DNA of 34,681 bases from Hyphomicrobiales bacterium (lineage in GTDB: Bacteria > Pseudomonadota > Alphaproteobacteria > Rhizobiales > Beijerinckiaceae). Below the pieces are notes generated by a model, which saw only the letters and a program-made list of their open reading frames with translations, ran no database searches and was not told the DNA's origin. Position 1 is the first letter of the stretch; each line of letters starts with the position of its first letter. Positions 10,621 to 29,281 of this stretch are shown piece after piece. The position numbers were made by a program, and so were the translations under genes. The stretch spans positions 1-34,681 of the forward strand of contig QBLV01000029.1 of assembly GCA_003241815.1 (NCBI GenBank), in the 5' to 3' direction.

Positions 10621-10925
10621 CGGCAAACCTCCCTGTACGGCGCATATGGCGCTCATGACGTCGGCGCCGCCCGTGCGATGCGTGCGTGGGCCGACCGGCG
10701 GAGGATGGCGCAGGCGTCTCGCCGCCGCCATGGCCGCAATGGCAGGGGCGAGACGCAATCGGCGCAGGGCGATGGTGCTCGCCGATGCGCGGGCCGCCGG
10801 CGCTCAAATGTCTGTTTCCCCTGTTACAGATCGTGCCGTCCGTGCATGCTAGCGTCGCCTTGACCATGCGGTAGCGGTCATGGCGGATGACATGTGCGCA
10901 ATCGGCAGGGGAAGCGGAGACAGCA
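10621..10925. other. Divergent intergenic region between the hydrolase and FecR genes
   Basis: 305 bp that must hold both divergent promoters. The only symmetrical site I find near the FecR start is TGACC-N10-GGTCA at 10861-10880, listed separately. No clear sigma-70 -35/-10 pair, RNA gene or small gene with a good start is visible. Confidence 0.4.
10861..10880. promoter_or_regulatory. Inverted repeat upstream of the FecR/Crp/cyclase genes, possible operator
   Basis: TGACC, ten bases, GGTCA: a 20-bp two-fold symmetrical site ending 45 bases before the chosen FecR start. The half-sites are short, so chance is a real alternative. It does not have the TGTGA-N6-TCACA layout of enteric CRP, but the Crp-type protein two genes downstream is the natural candidate to bind here. 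Confidence 0.25.
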
Positions 10926-11597: not shown

Positions 11598-12296
11598 ATG
11601 GACCAAGCCGCCATCGCCGCGATGCTGGGTGAGGCCGCTTTCTTCGCGCGGCTGTCACCCGAGGCGCTGCTGGCCTGCGCCGGAGAGTTCCGGGAGCAGC
11701 GTTTCGAGCAGTCCCAGATCCTGTTCTCGCGCGGCGACCCCGGCGACCAGCTCATTCTCGTCGGCGAGGGCCGCGTCCGGCTGGCGGTGACGACCGAGGA
11801 TGGCCGTGAATTGAGCGTCCGCCACGCCGTGCGCGGCGACCTGATGGGCGAGATCGCGGTGCTCGACGGCGGCGAACGCAGTGCCGCTGCGGTCGCGCTG
11901 ACGCCGGTCGTCGCCTATGGCCTGAGACGGGCGCCGTTCGAGCAGCTCGTCGCCTGCTATCCCGAGTTGTCGGCGGGCATCATCGCCTTCCTGTGCCGGC
12001 GCGTGCGACAGACCACGGACCAGCTCGAAGGTATCGCGCTCTATTCGATCGAGGTCAGGCTTGCCCGCTTCCTGCTGGTCGGCCTGGCCGGTCGCAAGCC
12101 TGCGCCGGGAAAGCGCGTGCCGCTCGACATGACCTTCTCGCAAGGGGAGCTGGCGCAATTGCTGGGGGCGAGCCGTCCCAAGGTCAACGCCGCGCTCGGC
12201 TCGCTCGAACAGGCCGGTGCTATCCGCCGCACCTCCGACCGCATCTTCTGCGATCCCGATCTGCTGGCGAAATGCGCCGGGATCAGCGATGTCTGA
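11598..12296 (+). CDS. Crp/Fnr family transcription regulator with cyclic-nucleotide-binding residues
   Basis: 232-residue regulator. The N-terminal cyclic-nucleotide-binding domain (about 15-130) contains GEIAVLDGGERSA (84-96). This aligns with the phosphate-binding cassette of E. coli CRP, keeping the Glu (Glu85) and the Arg-Ser pair (Arg94-Ser95) that contact cAMP. A long helix (about 125-150) leads to a winged helix domain with the recognition region SQGELAQLLGASRPKVNAAL (181-200). No Fnr-type cysteine cluster is visible near the start. It lies between the FecR gene and the adenylate cyclase, and its last codons overlap the cyclase start by eight bases. This arrangement makes it the likely reader of the cyclase product (inference). 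Confidence 0.92.
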   Translation: MDQAAIAAMLGEAAFFARLSPEALLACAGEFREQRFEQSQILFSRGDPGDQLILVGEGRVRLAVTTEDGRELSVRHAVRGDLMGEIAVLDGGERSAAAVALTPVVAYGLRRAPFEQLVACYPELSAGIIAFLCRRVRQTTDQLEGIALYSIEVRLARFLLVGLAGRKPAPGKRVPLDMTFSQGELAQLLGASRPKVNAALGSLEQAGAIRRTSDRIFCDPDLLAKCAGISDV

Positions 12297-14223
12297 ACGG
12301 CAGCGCCGGCTGTCGTCACCCGTTCTGGCGGGTGTGCTGGCCGGGCTTTGCGTTCTGATGTTATTGGTCGCCGCACCCGCGGCTTGGCGTCAGACCCTGC
12401 GCGAGCGCGTCTTTGATGCAGTCCTGAGCGGCGTCGCGGGCTGGCGTGTCGCGGGGCCGGAGACGAAGCTCGCCATCGTCGACATCGACACCGCCAGCCT
12501 CGAAGCCGTCGGCCCCTGGCCATGGCGGCGCGAGATCGTCGCGCGTCTGGTCTCCGCCGTGAACGGCGCGAAGCCTGCCGCCATCGCAGTGGACATGCTG
12601 CTGGCCGGCGACGATACGCGCTCGCCTGCAGCGCTGGCGCGGCAGCTCGCGGCGGAGACTGGGCGCGCCGATCTCGGCGAACTGGCGCCGACCCTCATCG
12701 ATGGCGACAAGGCCCTGGCGGAAGCCGTCGGTGCCGGCCCCGTCGCGCTCGGCTGGGTTCTCGATCCACGCGGACGCGATGATGTGGCCGAGGTGCCCGT
12801 CCTGACGCGAGAGGGCGTGAAGCTCGGCCCGCTCTGGCGCGAGACCGGCGCGACCGGCCCTCCGCCCACACTGGCGTCGGAGGCAGCGGGTGCGGGCACC
12901 CTGTCCCTGCCGGGTGACGAGGACGGACTGGTCCGGCGCGTGCCCCTCTTCGTCGCGGTCGGCGACGACATCCGCCCCGGCCTGGCCCTGGAGGCGCTGC
13001 GCCTCGCCTCGGGCGCTGCGGGCTATCTGCTCTCGGGCGACCCGGCCCGTCTCGGCGTCGGCGCAATGACGCGCCGCCTGCCATCGGACGGGATGCTGCG
13101 CCTGGTGCCCGGCTCGGCCGGTGTCGCGACGCTCCGGGCCGCTGACGTCCTGCGCGGAGGGGCCGATCTGGCGCCCCTCGCCGGGGCGATCGTCTTCATC
13201 GGCGGTTCGGCCTCAGAACTCGGCGCCTTGCGTGCCAGCGCGCGCGATCCGCTGACGCCGTCATCCGTGCTCCAGGCTGATGCCGTCCGCCAGATCGCGG
13301 CAGGCGTGGTCCCGCTGCGGCCCGCCCGCGCATGGATCTGGGAACTGGCCGTGTCGCTGCTCGGCGTGATGGTCGCGATCGGTCTTGCGCGCGGCTTGCG
13401 ACCGGCGCTGGCGGCGTCGGCGATGGCGGGCCTCCTGCTCGCCAGCGTGCTGGGTGCTGCGGGTCTCGCCGCCGCCGACCTTCTGCTCGATCCGGTGCCG
13501 CCGGCCGCATCCGGCGTGGCTGCCTTCCTCGCGACCTCGCTGGCTGGCTTTTCGGAAACGCGCCTGCGCGAGGCGCGTCTGCGCCGCCGCTTCGAGCAGC
13601 ATCTGGCGCCGGGCGTCGTCGAACGCATCATCGCCAACCCCACGAGCCTCAAGCTCTCGGGCGAGCGGCGCGAGATCACGGCCCTGTTCACGGATATCGA
13701 GGGCTTCACCCAGACCACGCGTGACATCGGCCCCGAGCAGCTCGTCAGCGTGCTCGACGGCTATTTCGACGGCGTCACCCGCATCGTCGGCGAGCATGGC
13801 GGCATGGTCGACAAGCTCGTCGGCGACGCCGTGCACGCTTTCTTCAACGCACCGCTGGATCTCGCCGACCACCCCCGGCGGGCGGTGGCCTGCGCGGTCG
13901 CGATCCTGGCCTGGACGGAGAGCTATCGTGCCCAGGGTCTCGCCGCGACCATCCGGCTCGGCCGCACCCGACAGGGCATCGAGACCGGCATTGCCATCGT
14001 CGGCGATGTCGGCGTCGGCGCCAAGCTAGACTACACCGCCCATGGCGATGCGGTGAACACGGCTGCGAGGCTGGAGGCCCTCAACAAGGAGCTCGGCTCG
14101 TCGATCTGCATCGGCCCGGCGGCGGCGCGGCGCTGTGGCGTCTCGCTCGTGCGTCCGCTCGCCACCGTCGAGCTGCGCGGTCTCGGGCAGGTCGAGGTCT
14201 TCACGCCGATGGAGGTCGCGTGA
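12289..14223 (+). CDS. CHASE2-domain adenylate cyclase (class III)
   Basis: 644-residue membrane cyclase. One helix near 13-31 leads to an extracytoplasmic CHASE2 sensor domain (about 35-340, with VDIDTASLEAVGPWPW and a conserved IVFIGGSA near 301-308). Three helices follow (about 349-420) and then the cytoplasmic class III catalytic domain (about 460-640). Metal ligands Asp469 (FTDIEGF) and Asp513 (VGDAV), adenine-selecting Lys509 and Asp581, and transition-state residues Asn590 and Arg594 (VNTAARL) are all present, so an active adenylate rather than guanylate cyclase is predicted. The ATG at 12289 overlaps the Crp gene. The sensor should receive an envelope signal, perhaps through the FecR or OmpA-like neighbours. 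Confidence 0.93.
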   Translation: MSERQRRLSSPVLAGVLAGLCVLMLLVAAPAAWRQTLRERVFDAVLSGVAGWRVAGPETKLAIVDIDTASLEAVGPWPWRREIVARLVSAVNGAKPAAIAVDMLLAGDDTRSPAALARQLAAETGRADLGELAPTLIDGDKALAEAVGAGPVALGWVLDPRGRDDVAEVPVLTREGVKLGPLWRETGATGPPPTLASEAAGAGTLSLPGDEDGLVRRVPLFVAVGDDIRPGLALEALRLASGAAGYLLSGDPARLGVGAMTRRLPSDGMLRLVPGSAGVATLRAADVLRGGADLAPLAGAIVFIGGSASELGALRASARDPLTPSSVLQADAVRQIAAGVVPLRPARAWIWELAVSLLGVMVAIGLARGLRPALAASAMAGLLLASVLGAAGLAAADLLLDPVPPAASGVAAFLATSLAGFSETRLREARLRRRFEQHLAPGVVERIIANPTSLKLSGERREITALFTDIEGFTQTTRDIGPEQLVSVLDGYFDGVTRIVGEHGGMVDKLVGDAVHAFFNAPLDLADHPRRAVACAVAILAWTESYRAQGLAATIRLGRTRQGIETGIAIVGDVGVGAKLDYTAHGDAVNTAARLEALNKELGSSICIGPAAARRCGVSLVRPLATVELRGLGQVEVFTPMEVA

Positions 14224-14333
14224 TGCGGCTGTTCCCTGCGGGACAGGCAAGCGCGAAGCCTTCGCGCATTCTCACGTCACGCGCTGCTCCGGCTCGCCCG
14301 GCGCATGGATCGCTCACAAAGGGAGATGATATC

Positions 14334-15602
14334 ATGGACCAGCCTTCAGTCCTCGTTTGCAGGCGTCCGGGTGCGGAGCAGGGCGTCAAAGGCCTCTGCC
14401 GGAAACGCGCCATGACGCTGCGCTCATTCTCCGCCGCCGTGATGCTGGCTCTGGCCACTGTGGGCAGCGCCCCGGCCGCGATCGCCCAGCCGGTCGCCGC
14501 GACCAAGGCCCCGGCGCTCGTACCGCTCGAACAGGCCTTCATGAAGGCGGCGACCGATCTCTTCGCAAAGCTGCCCGCCAGCTCCGGCGAGACGACGATC
14601 GTCATCGATCCGCTGATCGACGGCGTCACCGGCATCCAGTCGGCCGCGACGCGCGGCTTCGACAGGCGCATCGCCGCGCTGGTCGCCGAACGCTACCCGC
14701 ATGTGAAGGTCCTGCCCTTCACGCCGGAGAACGTCGCCAAGGCGCGCTTCGTCTTCATCGGCACCTTCAACACGATCAACAATGCCGGCCAGCCCGGGGC
14801 TGAAAAAGATGCCTTCTGGATCTGCTTTGCCCTCGTCGAGCGCGAGGCCAAGACGGTCTACGCTCGCAGCGTCTCCCGCTCCGTCGTCAACAATGTCGAT
14901 ATCGCGCCGGCCGCGTCCTATGCCGATAGCCCGGTCTGGGGCATGGACGCCGCGACGCGGGCCTATATCGAGGCTTGCCAGAAGTCGCAGCCGGGCTCGC
15001 CGGTCGCCCCCGCCTATATCGACCAGCTCGGCGCCGCCGCCCGCATCCGCGAGGCGACGGCCGCCTATGAGGCCGGCGACCACGCCAAAGCGCGCGATCT
15101 CTACCGCGAGGCCAAGGAACAGCCAGGCGGCGACCAGCTCCGCGTGCTGAACGGGCTCTATCTCTCCTACACCGCGCTCGGCGACAACGCGCAGGCCGAC
15201 AGCACCTTCGGCCAGATGGTCGAGCGCGGCTTCGCGCTGGGCCAGCTCGGCGTCAAGTTCCTGTTCGAGCCGAACTCGACAGCCTTCAATGCCGATCGCA
15301 AGCTCTCCGCGAGCTACCCGGCCTGGCTGCGCGAGATCGCCGCCAGGGCGACGAAGGCGGGCGTCTGCCTCGAGGTCGTCGGCCATGCCAGCCGCACGGG
15401 TCCGGAAGACCTCAACGACCGCCTCTCGCGTGAACGTGCCGAGCGCATCGCCTCGCTGATGGCCAGCCAGGCGCCGGGCATCGCCCAGCGCCTGCGCCCC
15501 TCGGGTGTCGGCTATCGCGAAGCTCTCGTCGGTTTGCCCCGCGACGATGCCAGCACGGCGGTCGATCGTCGCGTCGAATTCAAGACGGCGCCCTGCGCAT
15601 GA
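14334..15602 (+). CDS. Exported TPR/OmpA-like envelope protein
   Basis: 422 residues from the ATG at 14334, chosen because AAAGGGAGATGATATC precedes it. Starts at 14223 (touching the cyclase stop) and 14412 (directly before the signal-like MTLRSFSAAVMLALA) are alternatives. A signal peptide ends near AIAQ (residue 52 in this numbering). The middle (about 85-215) is an unrecognised domain, followed by a TPR-like pair of helices with AAYEAGDHAKARDLYREA (about 243-260). The C-terminus (about 305-420) is OmpA-like, with NDRLSRERAERI and DRRVEFK. The Asp that OmpA uses to bind diaminopimelate is Ser353 here (GHAS), so normal peptidoglycan binding is doubtful. The stop overlaps the next start as ATGA. 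Confidence 0.8.
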   Translation: MDQPSVLVCRRPGAEQGVKGLCRKRAMTLRSFSAAVMLALATVGSAPAAIAQPVAATKAPALVPLEQAFMKAATDLFAKLPASSGETTIVIDPLIDGVTGIQSAATRGFDRRIAALVAERYPHVKVLPFTPENVAKARFVFIGTFNTINNAGQPGAEKDAFWICFALVEREAKTVYARSVSRSVVNNVDIAPAASYADSPVWGMDAATRAYIEACQKSQPGSPVAPAYIDQLGAAARIREATAAYEAGDHAKARDLYREAKEQPGGDQLRVLNGLYLSYTALGDNAQADSTFGQMVERGFALGQLGVKFLFEPNSTAFNADRKLSASYPAWLREIAARATKAGVCLEVVGHASRTGPEDLNDRLSRERAERIASLMASQAPGIAQRLRPSGVGYREALVGLPRDDASTAVDRRVEFKTAPCA

Positions 15603-16804
15603 TCCCCTCTCGCGATGCGCCGGGCCTGCAGCGTCGCTGCCTGCCCGGCACAAGCCTGCCTGGCGCAAGGCCGCAGCCGAAGTCGCCCGGCGCCGGACGC
15701 TCTCTTCCGGCCATCGCCGCCGGCATCGGCCTGGTGATGGCGGCGGCTTGCGCAACGGCCCAGACCAAGCCGCCCCAGCAAGGCGCGGCCACCGTCGCCC
15801 CCACGCTGAAACTCCTGCCGGTCGCGCCGCCCAGGGACGCCGCCGTCGAGATGGCGGAGCGCATTGCTGGCACCACGGACCGCGCGGCGCTGCTCGAATT
15901 GCTGGCCGCCGGCGTTGACAAGTCCCGGATCACATCGCGGCTGACCGCGCTGGGCTATGTCGATCTCGCCGCCGGCAGCACCCGGCTCTGGATCAAGCCG
16001 GGATCGGGCGAGGGTTTTCGCGACTGTGCCGACTGCCCGGAACTCGTCCTGGTGCCCGACGGTGATGTCCGGATGCAGCTCTCGACCGGAGCCACGCCAC
16101 GCACCGTCGAGGCCAGCCTGCCGCAGCCTTTCGCGGTCGGCCGCTTCGAGGTGACGCGAGCGCAGTACCGTGTCTTCGTCGCGCAGTCCGGCCATGTCGT
16201 CGAGCTTGGCTGCCATGTCCGCGAGCCGGTCTGGAAGCTTTCTCCCACCCTGTCCTGGCAGGATTCGGGCTATCCGCAGACCGAGAACGATCCCGTCGCC
16301 TGCGTCAGCCATGGCGATGCCAAGGCCTATCTCGCCTGGCTCTCGAAGCGCACCGGCCAGCGCTACCGGCTCCTCACGGATCCGGAATGGCATCATGTCG
16401 CGGCTGCCTCCGCGAAGGAAATGGCCGATCCGAGCCGCCTCTGCGCGATCGGGAACGGTGCCGACCAGACGGCGAAGGCGGCTCATCCGTCGTGGACGGT
16501 CGCGCCTTGCCGCGATGGCCACCGCACCACGGCGCCCGTCGGCAGCTTCGCACCGAGCGCCTGGGGCCTTTCGGATTTGAGCGGAAATCTCTGGGAATGG
16601 GTCGATACCTGCCCGCCCGATCCGTCGGTGCCCGGCCAGCCCTTTCCGCCGCCGATCTGCCGCGAGGAGGAGGGCCGCATCCTGAGGGGAGGCTCCTGGG
16701 CCGATCCGCCGGCCGCGCGCATGCTGGACTCGCGGATCGTCAGCGAACCCGGCATCCGCGATCAGGTCGCGGGCTTCCGCGTCGCGCGCGACCTCGGCAA
16801 CTGA
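15599..16804 (+). CDS. SUMF1/formylglycine-generating-enzyme-fold protein, catalytic cysteines absent
   Basis: 401-residue secreted or lipid-anchored protein. The N-terminus has a long basic leader and a hydrophobic stretch (about 36-51) ending AAACATAQ; Cys51 could be a weak lipobox cysteine. Residues about 145-398 are a SUMF1 (FGE-sulfatase) domain: FAVGRFEVTRAQYRVFV, DPVACVSHGDAKAYLAWLS, YRLLTDPEWHHVA, LSDLSGNLWEWV, ILRGGSWAD and a terminal GFRVAR. After GGSW the positions holding the active-site cysteines of true formylglycine enzymes are non-cysteine, and no sulfatase gene is near, so a binding or scaffold role is more likely. Its ATG overlaps the preceding stop, making it the last member of the five-gene set. 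It converges on the TRAP permease with a 12-bp gap. Confidence 0.87.
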   Translation: MIPSRDAPGLQRRCLPGTSLPGARPQPKSPGAGRSLPAIAAGIGLVMAAACATAQTKPPQQGAATVAPTLKLLPVAPPRDAAVEMAERIAGTTDRAALLELLAAGVDKSRITSRLTALGYVDLAAGSTRLWIKPGSGEGFRDCADCPELVLVPDGDVRMQLSTGATPRTVEASLPQPFAVGRFEVTRAQYRVFVAQSGHVVELGCHVREPVWKLSPTLSWQDSGYPQTENDPVACVSHGDAKAYLAWLSKRTGQRYRLLTDPEWHHVAAASAKEMADPSRLCAIGNGADQTAKAAHPSWTVAPCRDGHRTTAPVGSFAPSAWGLSDLSGNLWEWVDTCPPDPSVPGQPFPPPICREEEGRILRGGSWADPPAARMLDSRIVSEPGIRDQVAGFRVARDLGN

Positions 16805-16810
16805 AGCCGG

Positions 16811-16836
16811 CGAGCCCTATGCGATCCTGGGGCTCG
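16811..16836. terminator. Short inverted repeat at the convergent gene ends
   Basis: CGAGCCC (16811-16817) and GGGCTCG (16830-16836) form a 7-bp stem with a 12-base loop exactly where the SUMF1 gene and the TRAP permease gene converge. There is no T-run on either side, and the right arm lies in the permease 3' end, so it is at best a weak or bidirectional transcription end. Confidence 0.25.
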
Positions 16837-18733
16837 TCCGCCCGGTCTTGCGTCCGGCCCAGAGCCAGGCGGTCGTGCCGGCCAGCAGCACGGCGCCGAC
16901 GATCTCGGTCGTCGCGATCGGCAGGAAAAGGCAGGCCCCGGCGACGAAGAGGATCGCGCGCTTCACCCTGTCCAGCCTGGCGACGTAATAGCCCTCCAGC
17001 GCCGCGTTGAGCGCCAGCACGCCTAGTGCCGCGGTGCCTGCGGAGATGACGATCTGCGCTGTCGATCCCGACAGCAGCAGGGCCGGCTGGTAGATGAAGA
17101 CGAAGGGCAGGAGGAACGCGACCATCGCGATCCGGCACGCCACGACCGCGATCAGCACCGGATTGGCCTTGGCGATCGAGGCGGCCGCGAAAGCCGCGAC
17201 CGCAACCGGCGGCGTGATCGCCGACATCGAGGCGATGTAGACGATGAACAGATGTGCCGGCAAAACCTCGATCCCGAGCGCGATCAGCGCCGGCGCGGCC
17301 AGCACGGCCGAGAGCGCGTAGACGGCCGGTGTCGGCATGCCCATGCCGAGCACGATGATGACGAAGGCCGCCACGAGGATGGTCAGGATCGGGCTGCCTC
17401 CGGACATCTGGAACAGGCCGGAGCTGATCTTGCCGGTCAGGTCCGTCATCGAGAGCGTGCCGACCACCAGCCCCGCGATGGCGCAAGCGACGCCGACCCC
17501 GATCATGCCGCGCATGCCGTCGCTGAGCCCGAAGAACAGCGTCCGGGCGAGTCGAAGCGGGTTGGGCTGCCGCAGCAGGGCCACCGGCAGAAGGGCGGCG
17601 CAGGCGATGGCGCCGGCATAGGAGGGTCGGTTGAGGCTGAGCACGCCCCAGACCAGAAGGCCGATCGGAACCAGATAAGCCCAGTCGCGTCGCAGGACGG
17701 CGACGATGGACGGCGTTTCGCCCTGCGACATTGGCGCGAGCCCATCGCGATGCGCCTTGAAATGCGCCGCGAGAAAGACCGACTGATAATAGAGCAGGGC
17801 CGGGATGAGCGCCGCCAGCACAATCGTCGCATAGGGAATGCCGGTGAAGTCCGTCATCAGGAAGGCGGCCGAGCCCATCACCGGCGGCAATAGCGCGCCG
17901 CCGGTCGATGCGGCGGATTCGATCGCCCCCGCATAGGTGCGGCTGACCCCGGTCTTGATCATCAGCGGGATGCTGAAGGAGCCGGTGGTGACGACGTCGG
18001 CCGTCGGCGAGCCCGAAATCGAGCCATAGAGCCCCGACGAGACCACCGCGACCTTGCTGGCGCCGCCGACCTGCTTGCCGACGAGACTGTTGGCGATGTC
18101 ATAGAAGAAGTCTGCGCCGCCGATGCGATCGAGCAGTGCGCCGAAGATCACGAAGACGACGACGAGGAAGGCCGCGACCTCGATCGCCGGACCAAACAGG
18201 CCGTTGGTCGAGAAGACGAGGTGGTCGACGATCTCCTGCGTGCTGAAGCCGCGATGGGCAAACGAGCCACTCAGCCTGTTGCCGAAGATCGCATAGGCCA
18301 GAAAAATCGTGACCAGCACGACGAGGATCATCCCGATGCAGCGCCGCGTCGCCTCCATGACGAGCGCGATCAGGACGATCGAGGCGGCGATGTCGAGAGT
18401 GGACAGCTCGTCGATCATCGGCAGCCGCATCTCGTGGACGGGCTGCATGATGACGAAATAGCCGCAGCACAGCACCGACAATGCGACCAGCCCCCATGCC
18501 GGCCAGGAGCGGCCGGTGTGGCGCAGCGGGTTGGCCGTGGTCGTCAGGAAGGCGAGCGAGAGCACGGCGCCGAGGAACAGAAACAGCGCGATCTCCCGCT
18601 TGACGTACCAGCCGAACGCCATCGCCAGCAGCAAGAGCCCGGTGGCGACCCCGACGATATGGACGGTCCATTGCTCGGCAGGGTCGAGCCGGCGCGATTG
18701 GCCCGGTGCGAGGAGCTTCAGCAGGACGGGCAT
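16817..18733 (-). CDS. TRAP transporter fused permease (DctQM-type, TAXI system)
   Basis: 638-residue inner-membrane permease. The first about 170 residues hold four or more helices corresponding to the small DctQ subunit; the remaining about 450 form the DctM-like large subunit, with conserved FVIFGALLDRIGGADFF, GSISGSPTADVVTTGSFSIPLM and GMGMPTPAVYAL. Fused permeases of this kind pair with TAXI-type binding proteins, and one lies 44 bp upstream. Uptake is driven by an ion gradient, not ATP. The ATG at 18733 has GAGGTG six bases upstream and is preferred to the start nine codons earlier. Substrates of TAXI systems are mostly unknown; glutamate and some organic acids have been proposed. Confidence 0.93.
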   Translation of the reverse strand: MPVLLKLLAPGQSRRLDPAEQWTVHIVGVATGLLLLAMAFGWYVKREIALFLFLGAVLSLAFLTTTANPLRHTGRSWPAWGLVALSVLCCGYFVIMQPVHEMRLPMIDELSTLDIAASIVLIALVMEATRRCIGMILVVLVTIFLAYAIFGNRLSGSFAHRGFSTQEIVDHLVFSTNGLFGPAIEVAAFLVVVFVIFGALLDRIGGADFFYDIANSLVGKQVGGASKVAVVSSGLYGSISGSPTADVVTTGSFSIPLMIKTGVSRTYAGAIESAASTGGALLPPVMGSAAFLMTDFTGIPYATIVLAALIPALLYYQSVFLAAHFKAHRDGLAPMSQGETPSIVAVLRRDWAYLVPIGLLVWGVLSLNRPSYAGAIACAALLPVALLRQPNPLRLARTLFFGLSDGMRGMIGVGVACAIAGLVVGTLSMTDLTGKISSGLFQMSGGSPILTILVAAFVIIVLGMGMPTPAVYALSAVLAAPALIALGIEVLPAHLFIVYIASMSAITPPVAVAAFAAASIAKANPVLIAVVACRIAMVAFLLPFVFIYQPALLLSGSTAQIVISAGTAALGVLALNAALEGYYVARLDRVKRAILFVAGACLFLPIATTEIVGAVLLAGTTAWLWAGRKTGRTSPRIA

Positions 18734-18777
18734 CGGAGCACCTCGCGAAGGCCTCGGCAATCAGGGGGCGATCGGCC

Positions 18778-19761
18778 TCACTTCAGGACGCCGGCCTTCC
18801 GGAAGGCCTTCTCCGCTCCGGGATGGAGCGCGAGTGGCGCGACCTGCGTCAGATTGACCGGCTCCAGCCGCGCCAGCGTGGCATGGGCCTGCTTGAGATA
18901 GTCGAAATGCTTCAGCATCCCATCGACGATCAGCGCGGCGTCCTCGTCCTTCATCTCGGTCGAGGCGAACAGCACCACGCTGCCCGTGACCGTCGCGATC
19001 GCCTGCGGCTGGAACGGATAGGTGCCCGCCGGAACGGTGATCGCCGCCGTGCCCAGCAGCGCGCCAAGCTTGGCGCTGGCCTCGGGGCTGATGCCCAGCA
19101 TCTTGACCTTGGTTTCGCGGGTCGCGCTGTTGATCTGGCCGGATGGGAAGGCGAGCATGTTGATGATGATGTCGATCTGGCCGTTCTTCATCATCTCGAG
19201 GCCGGCATTGTAATCGACGTGGTGGATGCGGCCGCCCCAGCCCTCGATATCCCTGGCCGTGATGCCATAGGCCTTGAAGACTTCCTCGCCGGTCACCGCC
19301 ATCAATGTGCCGCGCTGATTCAGCGCGATCCGGACCGGCTTCTTGGCTGCCAGGATGCTCTCGAAGCTCTCGATGCCGGAGTCTTCGCGAACCAGGATCT
19401 GCACGGCGGCCTGCGGATCGATCAGCGCGATGGCGCGCAGATTGGTGACGGGTGCCTTGAAGGGCTCTTCGCCGGCCTGCGCGCGCTTGATCAACTGCGC
19501 ATGGGCGATGCCGAGCTCGACCTTGCCCGTCGAGACGAGCTGGATATTGGCGGCCTCGCGGCCGGGCTCGTAGCCAAACGAGGCGCCGGGCGATTCACGC
19601 CGGATCGTCTCGCCAATCGCATTGCCGATGGCGCTCCAGGCGCCGCCGACGGAACCACCGGTCAGCGTGATTTTCTTGGTGGGGGCCGTCTGGGCGAGAG
19701 CGGAGCCGGCTGCGATTGCGAGCGATGCCGCCACGATGGATGCGATAGCCAGTCTCTTCAT
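18778..19761 (-). CDS. TAXI family TRAP transporter solute-binding protein
   Basis: 327-residue periplasmic binding protein. Signal peptide residues 1-23 end at ALAQ. The mature chain opens with KKITLTGGSVGGAWSAIGNAIGETI, the typical TAXI start, and later has GREAANIQLVSTGKVELGIAHAQL and NQRGTLMAVTGEEVFKAYGI. TAXI (TRAP-associated extracytoplasmic immunogenic) proteins deliver ligand to a fused TRAP permease, which is the next gene. The ATG at 19761 follows GGGAGGG, a strong ribosome site; the frame open to 20190 lies in the promoter region and is rejected. The gene is divergent from nadC across a 476-bp region with palindromic sites, so the two units may share regulation. Confidence 0.93.
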   Translation of the reverse strand: MKRLAIASIVAASLAIAAGSALAQTAPTKKITLTGGSVGGAWSAIGNAIGETIRRESPGASFGYEPGREAANIQLVSTGKVELGIAHAQLIKRAQAGEEPFKAPVTNLRAIALIDPQAAVQILVREDSGIESFESILAAKKPVRIALNQRGTLMAVTGEEVFKAYGITARDIEGWGGRIHHVDYNAGLEMMKNGQIDIIINMLAFPSGQINSATRETKVKMLGISPEASAKLGALLGTAAITVPAGTYPFQPQAIATVTGSVVLFASTEMKDEDAALIVDGMLKHFDYLKQAHATLARLEPVNLTQVAPLALHPGAEKAFRKAGVLK

Positions 19762-19937
19762 GATTGCCCTCCCAGGCCTGTATCGAGAGATGGGCCCGCA
19801 TGACGGGCCTGAAAACCCACGACTTCGCGGGTCGCGATCTGCGCCCTGCGATCTGCCGTAACTGTCTATCCCCGGTGGCTTCAAGCCGCTTCGTCGCGTG
19901 TATGTCTTGTTCGTCGGGCAAAGCCCTGCACAGTCCG

Positions 19938-19951
19938 CAACAAGTTTGTTG
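19938..19951. promoter_or_regulatory. Palindromic operator candidate CAACAA-GT-TTGTTG
   Basis: Six-base arms CAACAA and TTGTTG around two bases form a complete two-fold symmetrical site. It covers the -10 position of the candidate promoter reading toward the TAXI gene (TTGACA at 19966-19971 on the complement, 17-base spacer, CAAACT), where a repressor would block transcription. The regulator is not encoded next to it. Confidence 0.4.
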
Positions 19952-19971
19952 GTGTGCATATGGCTTGTCAA
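19943..19971 (-). promoter_or_regulatory. Candidate sigma-70 promoter for the TAXI TRAP operon
   Basis: On the complement, a perfect TTGACA (19971-19966) is followed after 17 bases by CAAACT (19948-19943), which matches the -10 consensus at three of six positions. It would give a leader of about 175 bases before the ATG at 19761. The -35 is convincing, the -10 is not. Confidence 0.3.
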
Positions 19972-20005
19972 TGCTGGTTTCCGCTCAATTTCGCAGCGTG
20001 CAGCG

Positions 20006-20017
20006 CAGCAATTGCTG
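20006..20017. promoter_or_regulatory. Perfect 12-bp palindrome CAGCAATTGCTG
   Basis: Fully symmetrical 12-base site in the TAXI-nadC divergent region, 68 bases from the start of the first palindrome and about 220 bases before nadC. It may be a second operator; a site of this length can also arise by chance. Confidence 0.3.
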
Positions 20018-20237
20018 GCGAATGAGGCGTTGCAACCTTGGGTTATCCTCGCGTTCCGCTGCTGTTGTGCGGTCAATCTGAGATGGATGGCTTCGTGATC
20101 TATTCCTTGCTTGACAGCCTGCGGCGCTCTCCGCATCGTTGGTACACAAACGGTAAGAAAAACGGGCCGGCCATGCTGCTCGCTCCCCATGGCGAGGCCC
20201 GCGCCAAGGCTGCGGGAGCGCGTGTCAGGGGCTGAGA

Positions 20238-21071
20238 ATGTATGACCGTTTCTCCACAGAGCGGCTGATCGACCTCTGGCTGAGGGAGGATATCGGCTCC
20301 TGCGACCTGACGGTCCAGCTTATGATCGAGCCCACCGAGACGGGCTCCTTCCGAATGAACGCGCGCGAGCCCATGGTGCTGGCGGGGATCGACGTCGCCG
20401 CCGCCGTATTCTCCCGCTACGAGCCGCGTCTGTCCGTGACCGTAGAGGCTGCCGATGGCGACCGCGTCGAGGCCGGCGCGACGCTGATCCTGGTCGAGGG
20501 GCCCGCGCAGGGCATCCTGACCGCCGAGCGCACGGCTCTCAACATCGTCCAGCGCCTGTCGGGCATCGCGACCGAGACGGCGCGCTATATCGACATCATC
20601 AAGGGCACTTCGGCCCGGCTCATCGACACCCGCAAGACCACGCCGGGCCTGCGCATGCTGGAGAAGCATGCGGTCGCCTGCGGCGGCGGCCTCAATCATC
20701 GACTGGGTCTCGATAACGGCGTGATGATCAAGGACAATCACATCGCCGTTTGCGGGGGCATCAGGCAGGCTGTCGAGCGCGCCCGCCGCAAGCTGCCAGT
20801 GCTGACCAAGATCGAGGTCGAATGCGACCGCATGGAGCAGGTACGCGACGCGGTCGCGGCCGGCGCCGACGTGATCATGCTCGACAACATGCCGGTGCCG
20901 GAGATGAAGGCGGCGGTGGCCTTCGTCGCCGGCCGCGCCAAGGTGGAAGCCTCCGGCGGCATCCGCTACGAAACCATCCGCGCCATCGCCGAGACCGGCG
21001 TCGATTACATTTCCACCAGCAAGATCACCCAGTCGGCGCCCGCCGTCGATATCGGTCTCGACGAAGCCTGA
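20238..21071 (+). CDS. nadC: Nicotinate-nucleotide pyrophosphorylase, carboxylating (quinolinate phosphoribosyltransferase)
   Basis: 277-residue cytoplasmic enzyme converting quinolinate and PRPP to nicotinate mononucleotide, CO2 and pyrophosphate in NAD synthesis. Family residues are in place: TAERTALNIVQRLSGIAT (95-112), DTRKTTPGLR (130-139), GLNHRLGLDNGVMIKDNHI (151-169, supplying Lys and His/Arg for the carboxylates), the acidic KIEVE (191-195), MLDN (214-217), EASGGI (237-242) and the closing TSKITQSAPAVDIGLD. Normal family length. The ATG has AGGGG seven bases upstream. Unusually, nadA and nadB are not adjacent; it is followed after 16 bp by a PRPP-forming fusion gene and is divergent from a TAXI transporter. 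The related ModD protein is a less likely identity. Confidence 0.9.
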   Translation: MYDRFSTERLIDLWLREDIGSCDLTVQLMIEPTETGSFRMNAREPMVLAGIDVAAAVFSRYEPRLSVTVEAADGDRVEAGATLILVEGPAQGILTAERTALNIVQRLSGIATETARYIDIIKGTSARLIDTRKTTPGLRMLEKHAVACGGGLNHRLGLDNGVMIKDNHIAVCGGIRQAVERARRKLPVLTKIEVECDRMEQVRDAVAAGADVIMLDNMPVPEMKAAVAFVAGRAKVEASGGIRYETIRAIAETGVDYISTSKITQSAPAVDIGLDEA

Positions 21072-21087
21072 GGCGACGAACAACGAC

Positions 21088-23142
21088 ATGCGGCCCGGCA
21101 TCCTCTTCGTCGTCGTCGGCCCCAGCGGCGCCGGCAAGGACACGCTCATGGACGGCGCCCGCAAGGCGCTGGCCGACAGCGGGCGCTTCGCCTTCGCGCG
21201 GCGCCTGATCACGCGCCCGGCCGATGCCGGCGGCGAAGATCACGAGGCGATTGATGAGTCGGGCTTCGCCGCGCTCGTGGCGGCCGGCGGGCTGCTGGTC
21301 TCCTGGAATGCGCATGGTCTGCATTACGGCCTGCGCGCCTCGCTGCGCGACGAACTCGCAAGCGGCAGGCACATCGTCGCCAATGGCTCGCGCGGCGTGC
21401 TGGAGACGCTGGCCCACGCGGTGCAGCGGCTGATCATCATCAATGTGACGGCCTCGCCAGAGATCCTCGCCGTCCGGCTCGCCGCACGCGGCCGGGAGAC
21501 GGCAGACGACATCGCCGCCCGCCTTGCGCGCAAGCCGCCGCAATGGCCGGCCGGAATCGAGACGATCGCCGTTAAGAACGACGGCACGGTCGAGGAGGGG
21601 ATCGAGCACTTCTTGGCGGCGATCGACGCCGCAACCCGCCGGCTCGCACTGAAGCCCGTGCCGATCGACGCCTGGCGCGACAACATCGCCTATCTGCCCC
21701 GCGACAGCATGCTGCGCGTCGAGGATTTCGACGGGCCGGGCAAGGTCGATGTCGCCGGCCAACCCGATGCGGAGGGCCATCGCCGCAGCATCCGCGCCCG
21801 CATCAACGTCGTCGAGCCGGGCTGGCTGCTCGAGCCCGACGAGATCGGCCTGTCCCGCGAGGCCTTTGCGCAACTCGCACTGCCCGAAGGCAGCGCCATC
21901 ACCCTGACCCGCACGCCGCCGCAGCACAGCCGCGACGCTTTGCGGGCGAAAATCCAGGGCAGCGAACTCGGCGCCTCCGAATACGCCATGCTGCTGCGCG
22001 ACATCGTCGAGGGGCGCTATCCGGAAGGCGAAATCTCCGCCTTCCTCGTCGCCGCGACCCGCTCGCTCAGCGATGCCGAGGTCGCCGCGCTCGCCGGCGT
22101 TCGTGCCTCTTTCTCGACGCCCATGCGCTGGGACGAGCGGATCGTCGTCGACAAGCATTCGATGGGCGGCATTCCCGGCAGCCGGATCACGCTGATCGTG
22201 GCGCCCATCGTGGCGGCCCATGGGCTGGCCATGCCCAAGACCTCGTCGCGGGCGATCACCTCCGCGGCCGGCACGGCGGATGCGATGGAGGTGCTGGCCA
22301 AGGTCGATCTGAATGTGGATGACGTGCGCCGCACGGTGGCGCAGGCGCGCGCCTGCATCGCCTGGAACGGCCGCCTCAACCATTCCGCCATCGACGACGT
22401 GATGAACGCGATCACGCGCCCGCTCGGCATCGATTCCAACCGCTGGTCGGTCGCCTCGATCATCTCGAAGAAGCTGACGGCGGGCTCGACCCATGTCGTC
22501 GTCGATCTGCCCTATGGCCGGCGGGCGAAGCTGCGCACGCGGGCCGAAGCCGACGAACTGGCGCGTCTGTTCGAGACGGTGGGCCTGTCGGTCGGCCTGC
22601 ATGTCGAGGCGGTTGCGACCTGCGGGGCTGCGCCCATCGGGCGCGGCATCGGCCCTGCGCTGGAGGTGCGAGACGTGCTGCGGGTGCTGGAGGGCCACGC
22701 CGACGCCCCCGCCGATTTGCGCGAGAAGGCGCTCGCCTTCGCGGGGCGCATCCTGTCCTGGGATCCGGCGATCGCGACGCGCGAACGCGGCCGGGCACGG
22801 GCGGCGCAACTCCTCGCCTCGGGCGCCGCGCGTCAGGCGCTGGACGCGATCGTCGCGGCGCAGGGAAAACGCGACATCGTGCCCCGGCCTGCAGCCCTGA
22901 CCCATACCGTCAAGGCAGGTCGGGCGGGCCGGATCGGTGAGATCGACGGCTGGCGCATGTCCGGCATCGCGCGTCGCGCCGGGGCGCCCTTCGACAAGAG
23001 CGCCGGCATCGACCTGCTGCGCCGCGTCGGTGACGACGTCGCCGTTGGCGAGGGGCTCTTCACCATCCACGCCTCAGCGGGGCCGGACCTTGAGGCGGCC
23101 GTCGCGATGGCGCAGACGGACGATGGTTTCGTGCTGGGCTAA
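21088..23142 (+). CDS. Fused ribose 1,5-bisphosphate phosphokinase (PhnN) / AMP phosphorylase-type enzyme
   Basis: 684-residue two-enzyme chain without frameshift. Residues 1-185 are PhnN-like: P-loop GPSGAGKD (11-18), RRLITRPADAGGEDHEAI (38-55) and VANGSRGVL (97-105). PhnN turns ribose 1,5-bisphosphate and ATP into PRPP. Residues about 190-684 match archaeal-type AMP phosphorylase of the thymidine phosphorylase superfamily, with its extra N-terminal domain (about 190-280), KHSMGGIPGSRIT (356-368) and KTSSRAITSAAGTADAMEVL (384-403). That enzyme splits NMP with phosphate into base and ribose 1,5-bisphosphate, the PhnN substrate. The fusion therefore predicts direct channelling from NMP to PRPP, which the adjacent NadC uses. 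No other phosphonate genes are near. Domain calls are strong; the joint pathway is inference. Confidence 0.88.
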   Translation: MRPGILFVVVGPSGAGKDTLMDGARKALADSGRFAFARRLITRPADAGGEDHEAIDESGFAALVAAGGLLVSWNAHGLHYGLRASLRDELASGRHIVANGSRGVLETLAHAVQRLIIINVTASPEILAVRLAARGRETADDIAARLARKPPQWPAGIETIAVKNDGTVEEGIEHFLAAIDAATRRLALKPVPIDAWRDNIAYLPRDSMLRVEDFDGPGKVDVAGQPDAEGHRRSIRARINVVEPGWLLEPDEIGLSREAFAQLALPEGSAITLTRTPPQHSRDALRAKIQGSELGASEYAMLLRDIVEGRYPEGEISAFLVAATRSLSDAEVAALAGVRASFSTPMRWDERIVVDKHSMGGIPGSRITLIVAPIVAAHGLAMPKTSSRAITSAAGTADAMEVLAKVDLNVDDVRRTVAQARACIAWNGRLNHSAIDDVMNAITRPLGIDSNRWSVASIISKKLTAGSTHVVVDLPYGRRAKLRTRAEADELARLFETVGLSVGLHVEAVATCGAAPIGRGIGPALEVRDVLRVLEGHADAPADLREKALAFAGRILSWDPAIATRERGRARAAQLLASGAARQALDAIVAAQGKRDIVPRPAALTHTVKAGRAGRIGEIDGWRMSGIARRAGAPFDKSAGIDLLRRVGDDVAVGEGLFTIHASAGPDLEAAVAMAQTDDGFVLG

Positions 23143-23999: not shown

Positions 24000-25346
<1,347 letters not shown>

Positions 25347-25350
25347 CGCG

Positions 25351-26367
25351 ATGTCCCGCATGACGATGATCGAGGCGATCCGGTCCGCCATGGACGTCTC
25401 GATGGGCCGCGACGACAACGTCGTGGTCTATGGCGAGGATGTCGGCTTCTTCGGCGGCGTGTTTCGCTGCACCCATGGCCTGCAGCAGAAATACGGCGTC
25501 AACCGCTGCTTCGACGCCCCCATCAGCGAACTCGGCATCGTCGGCACCGCGGTTGGCATGGCAGCCTATGGCCTGCGCCCCTGCGTCGAAATCCAGTTCG
25601 CCGACTATATGTATCCGGCCTATGACCAGATCGTCTCGGAAGCCGCGCGGCTGCGCTACCGCTCGGCCGGCGATTTCACCTGCCCGATTGTGATCCGAAT
25701 GCCCACCGGCGGCGGTATCTTCGGGGGCCAGACCCACAGCCAGAGCCCCGAGGCCCTCTTCACCCATGTTTCGGGCCTGAAGACGGTCGTGCCGTCGAAC
25801 CCCTACGACGCCAAGGGCTTGCTGATCGCTGCGATCGAGGACCCGGACCCGGTGATCTTCCTCGAACCCAAGCGGCTCTATAACGGCCCCTTCGACGGTC
25901 ATCATGACCGCCCCGTCACGCCATGGTCTAAGCATGAGCTCGGCGAGGTGCCCGACGGGCATTTTGCGCTGCCGCTCGGCAAGGCCGCGATCCGCCGCGC
26001 GGGGTCCGCCTGCACGATCGTTACCTATGGCACCATGGTCCATGTCGCCGAGGCGGTCGCGCAGGAAAGCGGCATCGACGCCGAGGTCATCGACCTCAGG
26101 ACATTGGTGCCGCTCGATCTGGAGACCATCGTCGCCTCCGTCTCCAAGACTGGCCGCTGCATGGTGCTACACGAGGCGACGCTGACCTCCGGCTTCGGCG
26201 CCGAGCTTGCCGCCCTCGTGCAGGAGCATTGCTTCTATCATCTGGAGGCGCCCGTTGTGCGCGTCGCCGGCTGGGACACGCCCTATCCGCATGCGCAGGA
26301 ATGGGCCTATTTCCCCGGCCCCGACCGTGTCGGTCGGGCGCTGGCCGAGCTGATGGAGAGCCGCTGA
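25351..26367 (+). CDS. bkdA2: Branched-chain 2-oxoacid dehydrogenase E1 beta subunit
   Basis: 338-residue partner of E1 alpha. The pyrimidine-binding transketolase domain occupies about residues 4-180, with [16 protein letters not shown] and the catalytic Glu60 in PISELGIVG that activates thiamine diphosphate. The C-terminal transketolase domain (about 200-330) includes [15 protein letters not shown]. The start lies four bases after the E1 alpha stop and the stop shares a base with the E2 start (TGATG), so the three are translated together. Length and motifs are fully normal for BkdA2/BCKDHB. Confidence 0.95.
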
Positions 26368-27692
26368 TGGCCGAGCGCATCATCAAGCTGCCCGATGTCG
26401 GCGAGGGCATCGCCGAGGCCGAGCTGGTCGAATGGCATGTCAAGGTCGGCGACATCGTCCGCGAGGACGATCTGCTCGCCGCCGTCATGACCGACAAGGC
26501 GACCGTCGAGATTCCGGCGCCGATCGACGGCGAGGTGCTCTGGATCGGCGCCGAGATCGGCGACACCGTCGCGATCGGCTCCGCCATCGTGCGCCTTAAG
26601 ATCGCCGGCGATGCGGCTGTCGCGGAGGAGCCGGAAGCCGGGTCCGGGAATGCAGCCGCGCCCGCGCCGGCGACGCCGGCACCCCGGCCCGCTCCTGCTG
26701 CGAAGCCCGACGTGGTCGAGCCCGCCCCGGATGCTGTCCCCGTGGCGATGCCGACCTCGGTTCCCAGGCGAACCGCCCCGCCGCCGGCTGCCGCCATCGT
26801 CGCACCACGGCGTGCACCAGGCGAAAAGCCCATTGCCTCGCCTGCCGTGCGCCTGAAAGCGCGCGAGGCCGGCCTCGATCTGCGCCAGATTGCGGGCAGC
26901 GGTCCTGCTGGCCGCATCCTGCAAGAGGATATCGACGCCTTTCTCCGGCGCGGGCCCGAGGCCGAGCGCAAGCCGGGCCTCTCCGAGAAGACCGCCGTCA
27001 CCGACGTCAAGATCGTAGGGCTCAGGCGCAAGATTGCCGAGAAGATGGCGCTGTCCAAATCGCGCATCCCACACATCACCATCGTCGAGGAGGTCAACGT
27101 CTCCCCGCTGGAAGATCTGCGCGCGACGCTGAACAAGAAGCCGACGCCGGAGCGGCCGAAGCTGACGCTGCTGCCGTTCCTGATGCGCGCCATGGCCAAG
27201 GCACTGGCCGAGCAGCCGAACCTGAACGCGCTCTTCGACGACGAGGCCGGCATCGTGCACCAGCATGCCGGCATTCATCTCGGCATCGCCACGCAGACGC
27301 CGGGCGGGCTGATGGTGCCTGTGGTGAAGCATGCCGAAGCCCGCGACATCTTCGGCTGCGCTCTGGAACTCAACCGCATCGCAGAACGCGCCCGCGACGG
27401 CACGGCGACCCGCGACGAACTCACCGGCTCGACCATCACCATCACCTCGCTCGGCGCGCTGGGCGGGATTGCGACGACGCCGGTGATCAACCACCCCGAG
27501 GTCGCCATCGTCGGCGTCAACAAGATGATGGTCCGCCCGGTCTGGGACGGCACGACCTTCGTCCCCCGCAAGATGATGAACCTGTCGTCCAGCTTCGACC
27601 ATCGCGTCGTCGACGGCTGGGACGCGGCGGTGTTCGTCCAGCGCCTCAAGGAGCTGCTGGAGAACCCGGCCATGCTGTTCATGGACCTTTGA
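26367..27692 (+). CDS. bkdB: Branched-chain 2-oxoacid dehydrogenase E2, lipoamide acyltransferase
   Basis: 441-residue core of the complex. One lipoyl domain (1-78) carries the lipoylated Lys44 in [10 protein letters not shown]. An Ala/Pro-rich flexible linker (about 85-150) follows, then the E3/E1-binding domain (157-193, [15 protein letters not shown] and GRILQEDI). The catalytic acyltransferase domain (about 212-441) ends with SFDHRVVDG, giving His412 and Asp416. It accepts branched acyl groups from E1 and transfers them to CoA. The stop codon sits inside a perfect 16-base tandem duplication at 27678-27709. Confidence 0.95.
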
Positions 27693-27709
27693 TTTCATGG
27701 ACCTTTGAT
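27678..27709 (+). repeat. 16-bp perfect tandem duplication at the bkdB stop codon
   Basis: The unit TTCATGGACCTTTGAT occurs twice head to tail (27678-27693 and 27694-27709). The first copy encodes the final Phe-Met-Asp-Leu and stop of E2; the second repeats these codons in the untranslated spacer, in a frame shifted by one base. The protein is unaffected because the first stop ends translation. Confidence 0.9.
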
Positions 27710-27729
27710 GTTGAGCAATCGAACCACCG

Positions 27730-27836
27730 CGTCATCCCGGACAAGCCGCGCATGCGGCGCAGCTCCGGGATCCATCGTAGAACGCAGTGCCTTACGATGG
27801 ATCCCGGCGTTCCGCTTCGCTCCAGCCGGGATGACG
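27730..27836. repeat. Dispersed palindromic intergenic repeat, copy D
   Basis: Bounded by CGTCATCCCGG and CCGGGATGACG, exact inverted copies. The centre contains perfect 13-base arms, GGGATCCATCGTA and TACGATGGATCCC. A side hairpin GCCGCGCATGCGGC lies in the left half. It sits between bkdB and lpdV inside the operon, where it could reduce read-through or mark an mRNA processing site, leaving lpdV partly independent. Confidence 0.78.
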
Positions 27837-27883
27837 GTGAGGTTCCACCACATGATTTTGCCCTGTCTTGGCAAGGACCGCCC

Positions 27884-29281
27884 ATGACCGAGATCACCTG
27901 CAAGCTGCTCGTCATCGGCGCCGGCCCCGGCGGCTATGTCTGCGCCATCCGCGCCGGCCAGCTCGGCATCGACACCGTCATCGTCGAGAGCGGCAAGCTC
28001 GGCGGCACCTGCCTGAATGTCGGCTGCATCCCGTCCAAGGCGATGATCCATGTCGCCGAGGAGTTCGAGAAAGCGGCCCATGCCGCAGCCGGCAAGTCGC
28101 CCTTCGGCCTGACGGCGGGCGCTCCCGCACTCGATTTCGGCAAGGCCGTCGCCTGGAAGGACGGCATCGTCGCGCGCCTCAACAACGGCGTCGCCGGCCT
28201 GCTGCGCAAGGCCAAGGTCAAGATCGTCCATGGCCGGGCCCGTTTCCGCGACGGCAAGACCGTGGTGGTCGAGACCGAGACCGGCCCCAAAGTGATCCGC
28301 GCCGAGCGGATCGTCATCGCGACCGGCTCGGTGCCGGTCGAGCTGCCGTTCCTGCCTTACGGGGGGCCAGTGATCTCCTCGACCGAAGCGCTCTCGCTTT
28401 CGGAGGTGCCGAAGAAGCTAGCCGTCGTCGGCGGCGGCTATATCGGGCTGGAACTGGGCATCGCCTTCGCCAGGCTTGGCAGCCAAGTCACCATCGTGGA
28501 GGCACAAGCACGTATCCTGCCGCTCTACGATGCCGATCTGACGGGGCCGGTCGCCAAGCAACTCACCGCGCTCGGCGTGGAAGTCCTGCTCGGCGCCAAG
28601 GCGCGGGGCGCGACGCCGAAGGGTGACGCCCTGCTGGTCGAAACGGCGGACGGCGGGGAACGCCGCATCGCCGCCGACACAATCCTCGTCACGGTCGGCC
28701 GCGCCCCCGCCACCGCAGGCCTCGGCCTGGAAGAACTGGTGCTCGACATGGATGGCCGCTTCATCCGTATCAACGAGCGCTGCGAGACCGCGATGCGCGG
28801 CATTTTCGCGATCGGCGACGTCACCGGCGAGCCGATGCTGGCCCACCGCGCCATGGCGCAGGGGGAAATGGTCGCCGAGATCGCGGCCGGCCTAGCCCGG
28901 GCCTGGGACAAGCGCTGCATTCCGGCGATCTGCTTCACCCATCCCGAGATCGTCTCGGCTGGACTCTCGCCCGACGAGGCAAAGCGCGCCGGGCTCGACG
29001 TCAAGATCGGCCAATTCCCCTTCGCCGCCAATGGCCGTGCCATGACGCGCGATGGCGAGCAGGGCTTCATCCGCATCGTTGCCCAGGCGCAGACGCAGCT
29101 CGTGCTCGGCATCCAGGCCGTCGGATCGGGCGTCTCCGAGCTGTCGACCGCGTTCGGCCTCGCCATCGAAATGGGCGCGACGCTGGAGGACGTGGCCGGG
29201 ACGATCCACGCCCATCCGACGCTCGGCGAGGGCGTCCAGGAGGCAGCACTCAAGGCACTGGGCCACGCCATTCACATCTGA
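27884..29281 (+). CDS. lpdV: Dihydrolipoamide dehydrogenase (E3) of the bkd complex
   Basis: 465-residue FAD-dependent disulfide oxidoreductase that reoxidises lipoyl-E2 with NAD. The FAD-binding [11 protein letters not shown] is at 12-22, the redox disulfide is Cys43/Cys48 in [13 protein letters not shown], the NAD-binding [10 protein letters not shown] is near residues 185-194, and the active-site dyad is His444/Glu449 in HAHPTLGE. All are intact. The ATG at 27884 has AAGGA seven bases upstream; the frame open to 27689 runs through the repeat and is rejected. It is separated from bkdB by 191 bp holding copy D of the palindromic repeat, but orientation and position assign it to the same complex. 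Confidence 0.94.

Follow-up and report, generated by a model that had tools for sequence, protein, structure and literature searches.

The gene considered here lies at positions 21,088 to 23,142 on the forward strand of a 34,681-nucleotide stretch of DNA from a Hyphomicrobiales bacterium related to Bosea (GenBank assembly GCA_003241815.1, contig QBLV01000029.1; the whole stretch is called the window below). It encodes a 684-residue fusion of PhnN, a ribose 1,5-bisphosphokinase, to a relative of the nucleoside 5'-monophosphate (NMP) phosphorylases, and it follows a homologue of nadC, the gene for quinolinate phosphoribosyltransferase (QPRTase). Together, NadC and the fusion probably form a cycle that recycles phosphoribosyl pyrophosphate (PRPP) while decarboxylating imported quinolinate to nicotinate. 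The basis of this proposal is gene content, linkage, domain families, trees that fit one origin, and altered base-site positions in the phosphorylase half.

Proposed cycle

In the first step of the cycle, NadC would convert quinolinate and PRPP to nicotinate mononucleotide (NaMN), carbon dioxide and pyrophosphate. The phosphorylase half of the fusion would then cleave NaMN with phosphate to nicotinate and ribose 1,5-bisphosphate, and the PhnN half would use ATP to turn ribose 1,5-bisphosphate into PRPP, releasing ADP. The sum would be quinolinate + phosphate + ATP -> nicotinate + carbon dioxide + pyrophosphate + ADP with PRPP unchanged, the phosphoribosyl group acting as a catalytic carrier that is recycled each round. 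Nicotinate could then enter nicotinate catabolism by hydroxylation, followed by 6-hydroxynicotinate reductase (Hnr). Each product would be the substrate of the next enzyme, which would give a reason why the phosphorylase and the kinase are fused and why nadC is linked to them. In NaMN the N-glycosidic link is a high-energy pyridinium bond, so phosphorolysis of NaMN to ribose 1,5-bisphosphate is expected to be favourable, in contrast to that of AMP. Three parts of this scheme are inferred: NaMN as the substrate of the phosphorylase half, quinolinate as the ligand imported in the window organism, and a catabolic direction of the flux.

The fusion gene

The frame is free of stops over its 684 residues, and both KHSMGGIPGSRIT and KTSSRAITSAAGTADAM are present in the translation. 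The N-terminal half (residues 4 to 180; 21,097 to 21,627, forward strand) passes the NCBIfam PhnN equivalog TIGR02322 with 188.3 bits against a cut-off of 156, and by family it is a kinase predicted to convert ribose 1,5-bisphosphate to PRPP. Its Walker-A motif is GPSGAGKD, in which G11, P12, S13, G14, G16, K17 and D18 are invariant across 23 aligned fusions. The C-terminal half (residues 186 to 681; 21,643 to 23,130, forward strand), the putative NaMN phosphorylase, passes the subfamily model NF003338, named 'thymidine phosphorylase' (597.8 bits, cut-off 434), as well as TIGR02645 (465.4 bits, cut-off 434.6). It does not reach the cut-off of the AMP phosphorylase model TIGR03327 (386.5 against 535 bits), nor those of the classical thymidine phosphorylases (TIGR02643, 128 against 570.7 bits; NF004490, 169.6 against 269 bits), and these cut-offs rule out an ordinary thymidine phosphorylase. 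The nearest solved structures to this half are 4ga5 and 4ga4, both of Thermococcus AMP phosphorylase, by sequence search and by a Foldseek search with an AlphaFold2 model of the fusion (mean pLDDT 87.4, pTM 0.68, from an input of 23 fusion rows).

An earlier note on this DNA, made from the sequence alone, had described one uninterrupted 684-residue frame with a PhnN half and a phosphorylase half. Translation and the NCBIfam profiles confirm this, with PhnN at residues 4 to 180 and the relative of the NMP phosphorylases at residues 186 to 681. The suggestion that one half produces the ribose 1,5-bisphosphate on which the other acts is likewise sound in its logic.

Distribution and origin of the fusion

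A scan of Genome Taxonomy Database (GTDB)-representative contigs gave 27 loci, in Bosea, Herbaspirillum, Cupriavidus, Limibaculum and metagenome-assembled genomes, so the domain order that the earlier note proposed looking for elsewhere does recur. Matches at two of these loci are cut by the locus end (L011 and L031), one is a PhnN-only remnant (L030), and the rest cover both halves. Because frames spanning both halves recur across many species, the fusion is not an artefact in which a sequencing error joined two genes. Four plasmid records match at 80% cover or more, three of them with fusions (H1 to H3) and one with a standalone phosphorylase gene (H18). In a sample of 199 genomes of the window's family, eight carry the full fusion (G000, G148, G163, G176, G004, G132, G052 and G011, the last counted from two matches within one open frame) and G110 has a PhnN remnant of it. 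In a sample of 398 genomes of the phylum, 45 match at E <= 1e-60; PhnN and the phosphorylase occur together in five of these (G000, G011, G578, G495 and G438), and the other matches cover the phosphorylase part, the PhnN domain not having been checked in each.

Both domain trees place the fusions on one side of a branch. In the phosphorylase-domain tree, made by a quick method and with long branches flagged, 34 fusion rows group as a single clade (SH-aLRT 100, stem 0.74), apart from the Thermococcus enzyme and 36 standalone rows. In the PhnN tree, a branch with support 95 separates 34 fusion rows, together with the L030 remnant, from 11 free PhnN proteins. These trees are consistent with a single fusion event. 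Many betaproteobacterial fusions (L014, L021, L026 and relatives) are about 100 residues shorter and lack most of the N-terminal domain of the phosphorylase half. On two annotated plasmids (L162:5995-8375 and L004:9136-11573), a standalone gene of the NF003338 family and a gene for ribose-phosphate diphosphokinase share a few bases, as if these standalone relatives, too, fed ribose 1,5-bisphosphate or PRPP metabolism.

Linkage to nadC and uptake genes

The nadC homologue of the window (20,238 to 21,071, forward strand) scores 329.2 bits against TIGR00078, above the cut-off of 198.4, and ends 16 bp before the fusion gene. It is the sole PF01729 match in its assembly, which is 90.3% complete. 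On the reverse strand lie the genes for a TAXI-type TRAP solute-binding protein (18,778 to 19,761; PF16868, NMT1_3; the start at 19,761 is inferred, the longest open reading frame (ORF) extending to 20,190) and for a TRAP transporter permease, DctM (16,817 to 18,760; PF06808), which together are proposed to import quinolinate. Read from the sequence, the intergenic region at 19,762 to 20,237 is common to the divergent transporter and nadC-fusion units.

At 31 loci, a comparison was made of all ORFs lying up to 9 kb from the fusion. At 30 of them nadC lies upstream on the same strand, adjoining the fusion in most and separated from it by about 1 kb in Cupriavidus-type loci; the exception is L012, which starts at a contig edge only 431 bases ahead of the fusion. 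No NadC match was found in the fetched flanks of 45 loci with standalone relatives of the phosphorylase, a count in which the flank is about 1.5 kb for most loci and longer for 13, and in which nine loci are wider re-fetches of places also counted as short loci. In Bosea sp. AAP35 (L030), the phosphorylase half is missing together with nadC and the transporter, downstream synteny is kept, and a lone PhnN remnant of about 200 residues occupies some 600 bases from position 10,001 of that locus.

Uptake genes are a further element of these neighbourhoods. TAXI and TRAP genes stand beside the nadC-fusion pair in nine of the 31 loci. A TctC-type binding protein gene follows the fusion in Variovorax (by Pfam) and Cupriavidus (by clustering), an NMT1-type ABC system lies upstream at L010, and Alcaligenaceae-like loci have upstream a branched-chain-type ABC system, judged by its binding protein, size and order. 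That the uptake systems differ between loci would suit a cycle of the same kind acting on another N-heteroaromatic 2-carboxylate, to give the matching decarboxylated acid, and QPRTase-family enzymes might accept analogues. We consider this quite improbable, however, as the NadC of the module scores above the QPRTase equivalog cut-off and can be aligned with solved QPRTases over their TRKTTPGLR, NHRLGL and IKDNHI stretches, nicotinate genes neighbour five of the loci, and the binding proteins Bug27 and Bug69 prefer quinolinate, as described in PMC11452294.

Base-site residues of the phosphorylase half

Twenty alignment columns are conserved in the fusion rows and rare in the standalone rows, nine of them within residues 427 to 453. 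Some of the 20, among them Ser358, Ala393 and Leu430, match the Thermococcus enzyme and are thus not new to the fusion. Positions were compared with Escherichia coli thymidine phosphorylase (TP) through an alignment to Bacillus pyrimidine nucleoside phosphorylase, whose numbering runs two behind that of E. coli TP as read from the KHS motif. The place of Tyr168, a base-contacting residue of E. coli TP, is Asn440 in all 34 fusion rows, and that of Arg171 is Thr443 in 88% of them. In the 36 standalone bacterial rows the same two places hold Ile (92%) and Glu (100%), and in Thermococcus they hold Ile247 and Glu250. The equivalents of Ser186 and Lys190 and the KTSSRAITS stretch are kept in the fusions, with K384, S386, S387, R388, I390 to S392, S457 and K461 at 100% and T385 at 97%. 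According to PMC5238616, Arg171 of TP contacts the C4 carbonyl of the base, and Ser186 and Lys190 contact N3 and C2 in proposed variants. An acidic base such as nicotinate would be better accommodated if Glu is lost and His432 and Arg452 are gained, as in the fusions.

Possible link to nicotinate degradation

A 519-residue protein encoded near the fusion at L066 is 66 to 70% identical to plasmid proteins, of which seven among the 15 listed are annotated as Hnr and the rest are hypothetical or unannotated. It has no Pfam or NCBIfam match, and the name Hnr is taken from these relatives. On an annotated Sulfitobacter plasmid, an ordinary cluster of this type holds the FAD and Mo subunits of a molybdenum (Mo) hydroxylase, Hnr, a UPF0280 gene, two AA_synth genes and a MarR regulator.

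Hnr genes occur at five of the 31 fusion loci, with close Mo-hydroxylase homologues in two of those five. At L064/L115, in another genus of the window's family, a single co-directional run holds nadC, the fusion, the FAD subunit of a Mo-hydroxylase 12 bp further on, the Mo/2Fe-2S subunit, Hnr, UPF0280 and two AA_synth genes. At L013 (Limibaculum), the Mo subunit, Hnr, UPF0280 and two AA_synth genes lie upstream of the TAXI-TRAP, nadC and fusion genes, and at L065, L066 and L067, all from the window's genus, nadC and the Hnr genes point away from each other. Across the family sample, Hnr is present in 49 of the 199 genomes, namely in all eight with the full fusion and in 41 of the 191 others (Fisher 8.5e-6, uncorrected for kinship). 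It lies 10 kb or less from the fusion in four of the eight, for which random placement gives a chance of 2.7e-8, three of the four being from one genus. Of 16 further fusion genomes, five have Hnr and 11 do not. In the window's own genome the Hnr cluster is on contig C44, unlinked to the fusion; there, the large Mo-hydroxylase subunit matches as two abutting pieces (L164:10339-13057), reflecting either an assembly error or a split gene.

These findings also bear on the choice of substrate. The earlier note had proposed a general NMP (AMP, CMP or UMP), a choice left unsupported by the QPRTase gene partner, the Asn and Thr of the base site and the Hnr clusters; from the sequences, NaMN is the more likely substrate. 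The same three reactions might instead serve to control NaMN overflow in NAD homeostasis, the fusion degrading surplus NaMN to nicotinate and PRPP with no catabolic role. This would fit the nadC linkage and the 11 of 24 fusion genomes that have no Hnr, but the uptake genes next to the pair speak against it, as does the co-directional run of catabolic genes at L064, and we hold it to be very improbable.

Is nadC there for NAD synthesis?

Ten genomes of the window's genus were sampled: nadC was found in all seven that carry the full fusion, whereas the three lacking the full fusion have none. NadA was found in none of the ten, and a gene of the nicotinate phosphoribosyltransferase family (PF04095) in nine, the miss being the window's own genome, which is about 90% complete. 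In this genus nadC is therefore dispensable and tracks the fusion. In eight genomes (G588 to G594 and G438), all of which have NadA, the nadC of the module is an extra copy besides at least one other strong PF01729 match. NadC proteins encoded beside fusions are 59 to 94% identical to that of the window; five other copies in Cupriavidus genomes (L153 to L157) are 44 to 47% identical to it, and four of these five lie within about 1 kb of NadA. The 3-hydroxyanthranilate dioxygenase family PF06052 was matched in only four of 24 fusion genomes, one of three others and none of 14 control genomes, which rules out endogenous quinolinate from the kynurenine route as a general source. Since the Bosea-type genomes also lack NadA, quinolinate should, by known routes, come from outside, and this fits the uptake genes.

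A different role for the pair would be PRPP supply for NAD synthesis, in which the fusion turns AMP, CMP or UMP and phosphate into ribose 1,5-bisphosphate and then PRPP, and NadC makes NaMN from scavenged quinolinate; this sets the chemistry proposed in the earlier note beside nadC. The enzymology has precedent: the Thermococcus NMP phosphorylase acts on AMP, CMP and UMP and E. coli PhnN makes PRPP (PMC9700705), NMP phosphorylase is reported in PMC8376864 to act on every natural 5'-mononucleotide, PhnN has a dual role in the phosphonate and NAD pathways according to the title of a cited paper, and the nadC-phnN-bug27 grouping is taken as NAD-related in PMC11452294. The absence of NadA from Bosea-type genomes would also suit this role, as would two genomes, G587 (the genome of L013) and G495, in which NadA is present and the nadC of the module is the only strong PF01729 match. 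Nevertheless, a flux at the level of a vitamin ought not to require a PRPP source of its own, the base-site positions of the fusion depart from those common to Thermococcus and the standalone relatives, five fusion loci stand at Hnr clusters, eight genomes are already equipped with NadA and a further QPRTase, and three of the ten genomes of the window's genus manage without nadC. On balance, PRPP supply for NAD seems to us unlikely, and the quinolinate-to-nicotinate cycle remains the preferred explanation.

Several points nonetheless weigh against that cycle. We know of no enzyme that phosphorolyses NaMN, the base-site changes suggest an altered specificity and do not identify the substrate, and residues 389 to 394 of the fusion model have pLDDT below 50. 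No nicotinate genes are linked to the fusion within the window, and Hnr was not found in 11 of the 24 fusion genomes (G578, G495, G438, Herbaspirillum G586 and seven Cupriavidus-type genomes) in a search that did not include the aerobic nicC-type route; to our knowledge, no downstream nicotinate route is known for these 11. In G587 and G495 the NadC of the module may serve NAD synthesis too, and as NaMN is also usable for NAD, salvage of quinolinate for NAD is possible. Lastly, the Herbaspirillum genome of L010 has a second NadC (L152) that is 70% identical to that of the window and beside which no fusion was detected, so this NadC subfamily also occurs outside the module.

Relation to known systems

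The closest known enzyme is the archaeal AMP/NMP phosphorylase of Thermococcus kodakarensis (TK0352, PDB 4ga4 to 4ga6), with which the window protein shares the fold, the phosphate-site stretch, the N-terminal domain and the expected product, ribose 1,5-bisphosphate. It differs in falling below the TIGR03327 cut-off, in having Asn and Thr for Ile247 and Glu250, and in being fused to PhnN, and many betaproteobacterial fusions are also without about 100 residues of the N-terminal domain.

In the carbon-phosphorus (C-P) lyase route, the substrate is bound to a phosphoribosyl group and ribose 1,5-bisphosphate is returned to PRPP, which makes this route the nearest pathway analogue of the proposed cycle. 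The fusion resembles the PhnN of C-P lyase in passing TIGR02322 and in the PRPP-forming step it would carry out. It differs in its partners, here the phosphorylase and NadC, and it has not been seen in a phn operon. The earlier note had envisaged recycling without a phosphonate pathway; this does not hold at the level of the whole cell, as PhnJ was found in 25 of the 27 genomes examined for it, including 22 of 24 with the fusion and the window's own, where it is on another contig. PhnJ was not seen next to the fusion, the closest noticed being 26 kb away in G438, in a search for PhnJ only that did not scan all neighbouring ORFs or work out the other distances. A role in C-P lyase as a member of a phn operon is rejected, since PhnJ, the one gene of phnGHIJKLM searched for, is in these genomes yet was not seen next to the fusion.

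Part of this arrangement is already in print, namely the adjacency of nadC, phnN and bug27; the fusion and the cycle did not turn up in the literature searches. Quinolinate is bound by Bug27 and Bug69 with submicromolar affinity, and in Variovorax and Jezberella nadC and phnN have bug27 orthologues as neighbours, phnN being treated as a kinase for NAD synthesis (PMC11452294). The nadQ-nadC-bug69 and bug27-nadC-phnN loci of that paper are alike in having nadC beside a quinolinate-binding protein and in the mention of phnN; they differ in that 'thymidine phosphorylase' has no occurrence in its main text. The Azorhizobium-type nicotinate cluster described in PMC3511419 contains Hnr with conserved genes of unassigned role, as at L064, L013 and L065 to L067. 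It starts from nicotinate or 6-chloronicotinate, and with nadC and the fusion added the route would reach back to quinolinate. A phthalate dioxygenase is active on quinolinate (PMC13040137). Literature searches, covering open-licence PMC papers only, found no NaMN phosphorylase, PhnN-phosphorylase fusion or quinolinate-to-nicotinate cycle.

The balance tips only slightly towards this being a new catabolic strategy, in which a phosphoribosyl group would act as a recycled activating carrier for aromatic decarboxylation, an NaMN phosphorylase would be fused to its PRPP-regenerating kinase, and NadC, otherwise an enzyme of NAD biosynthesis, would serve as a degradative quinolinate decarboxylase. 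If so, a gene whose annotation points to phosphonate metabolism or thymidine phosphorolysis would be the missing part of a quinolinate degradation route, the retention of nadC without nadA in some bacteria would be explained, and NaMN phosphorolysis would be added as a reaction not known before. The ribose-1,5-bisphosphate-to-PRPP step of C-P lyase would become a more general device in which a substrate is activated on ribose phosphate, cleaved, and the carrier recycled. Quinolinate is a neuroactive tryptophan metabolite, so its microbial removal is of wider interest.

Other features of the window

A 681-residue antisense ORF overlaps the fusion gene. Antisense ORFs over fusions elsewhere vary in length, with medians of 345 and 157 residues in the two largest clusters. 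At 12,217 to 16,804, genes for a CHASE2-adenylate/guanylate cyclase, an OmpA-like protein and an FGE-sulfatase-domain protein stand in a row behind a FecR-domain gene at 10,887 to 11,594. Downstream of the fusion, at 24,012 to 29,281, are 2-oxoacid dehydrogenase genes for E1 alpha, E1 beta, E2 and E3, and among the 31 compared loci such clusters accompany only those of Bosea.

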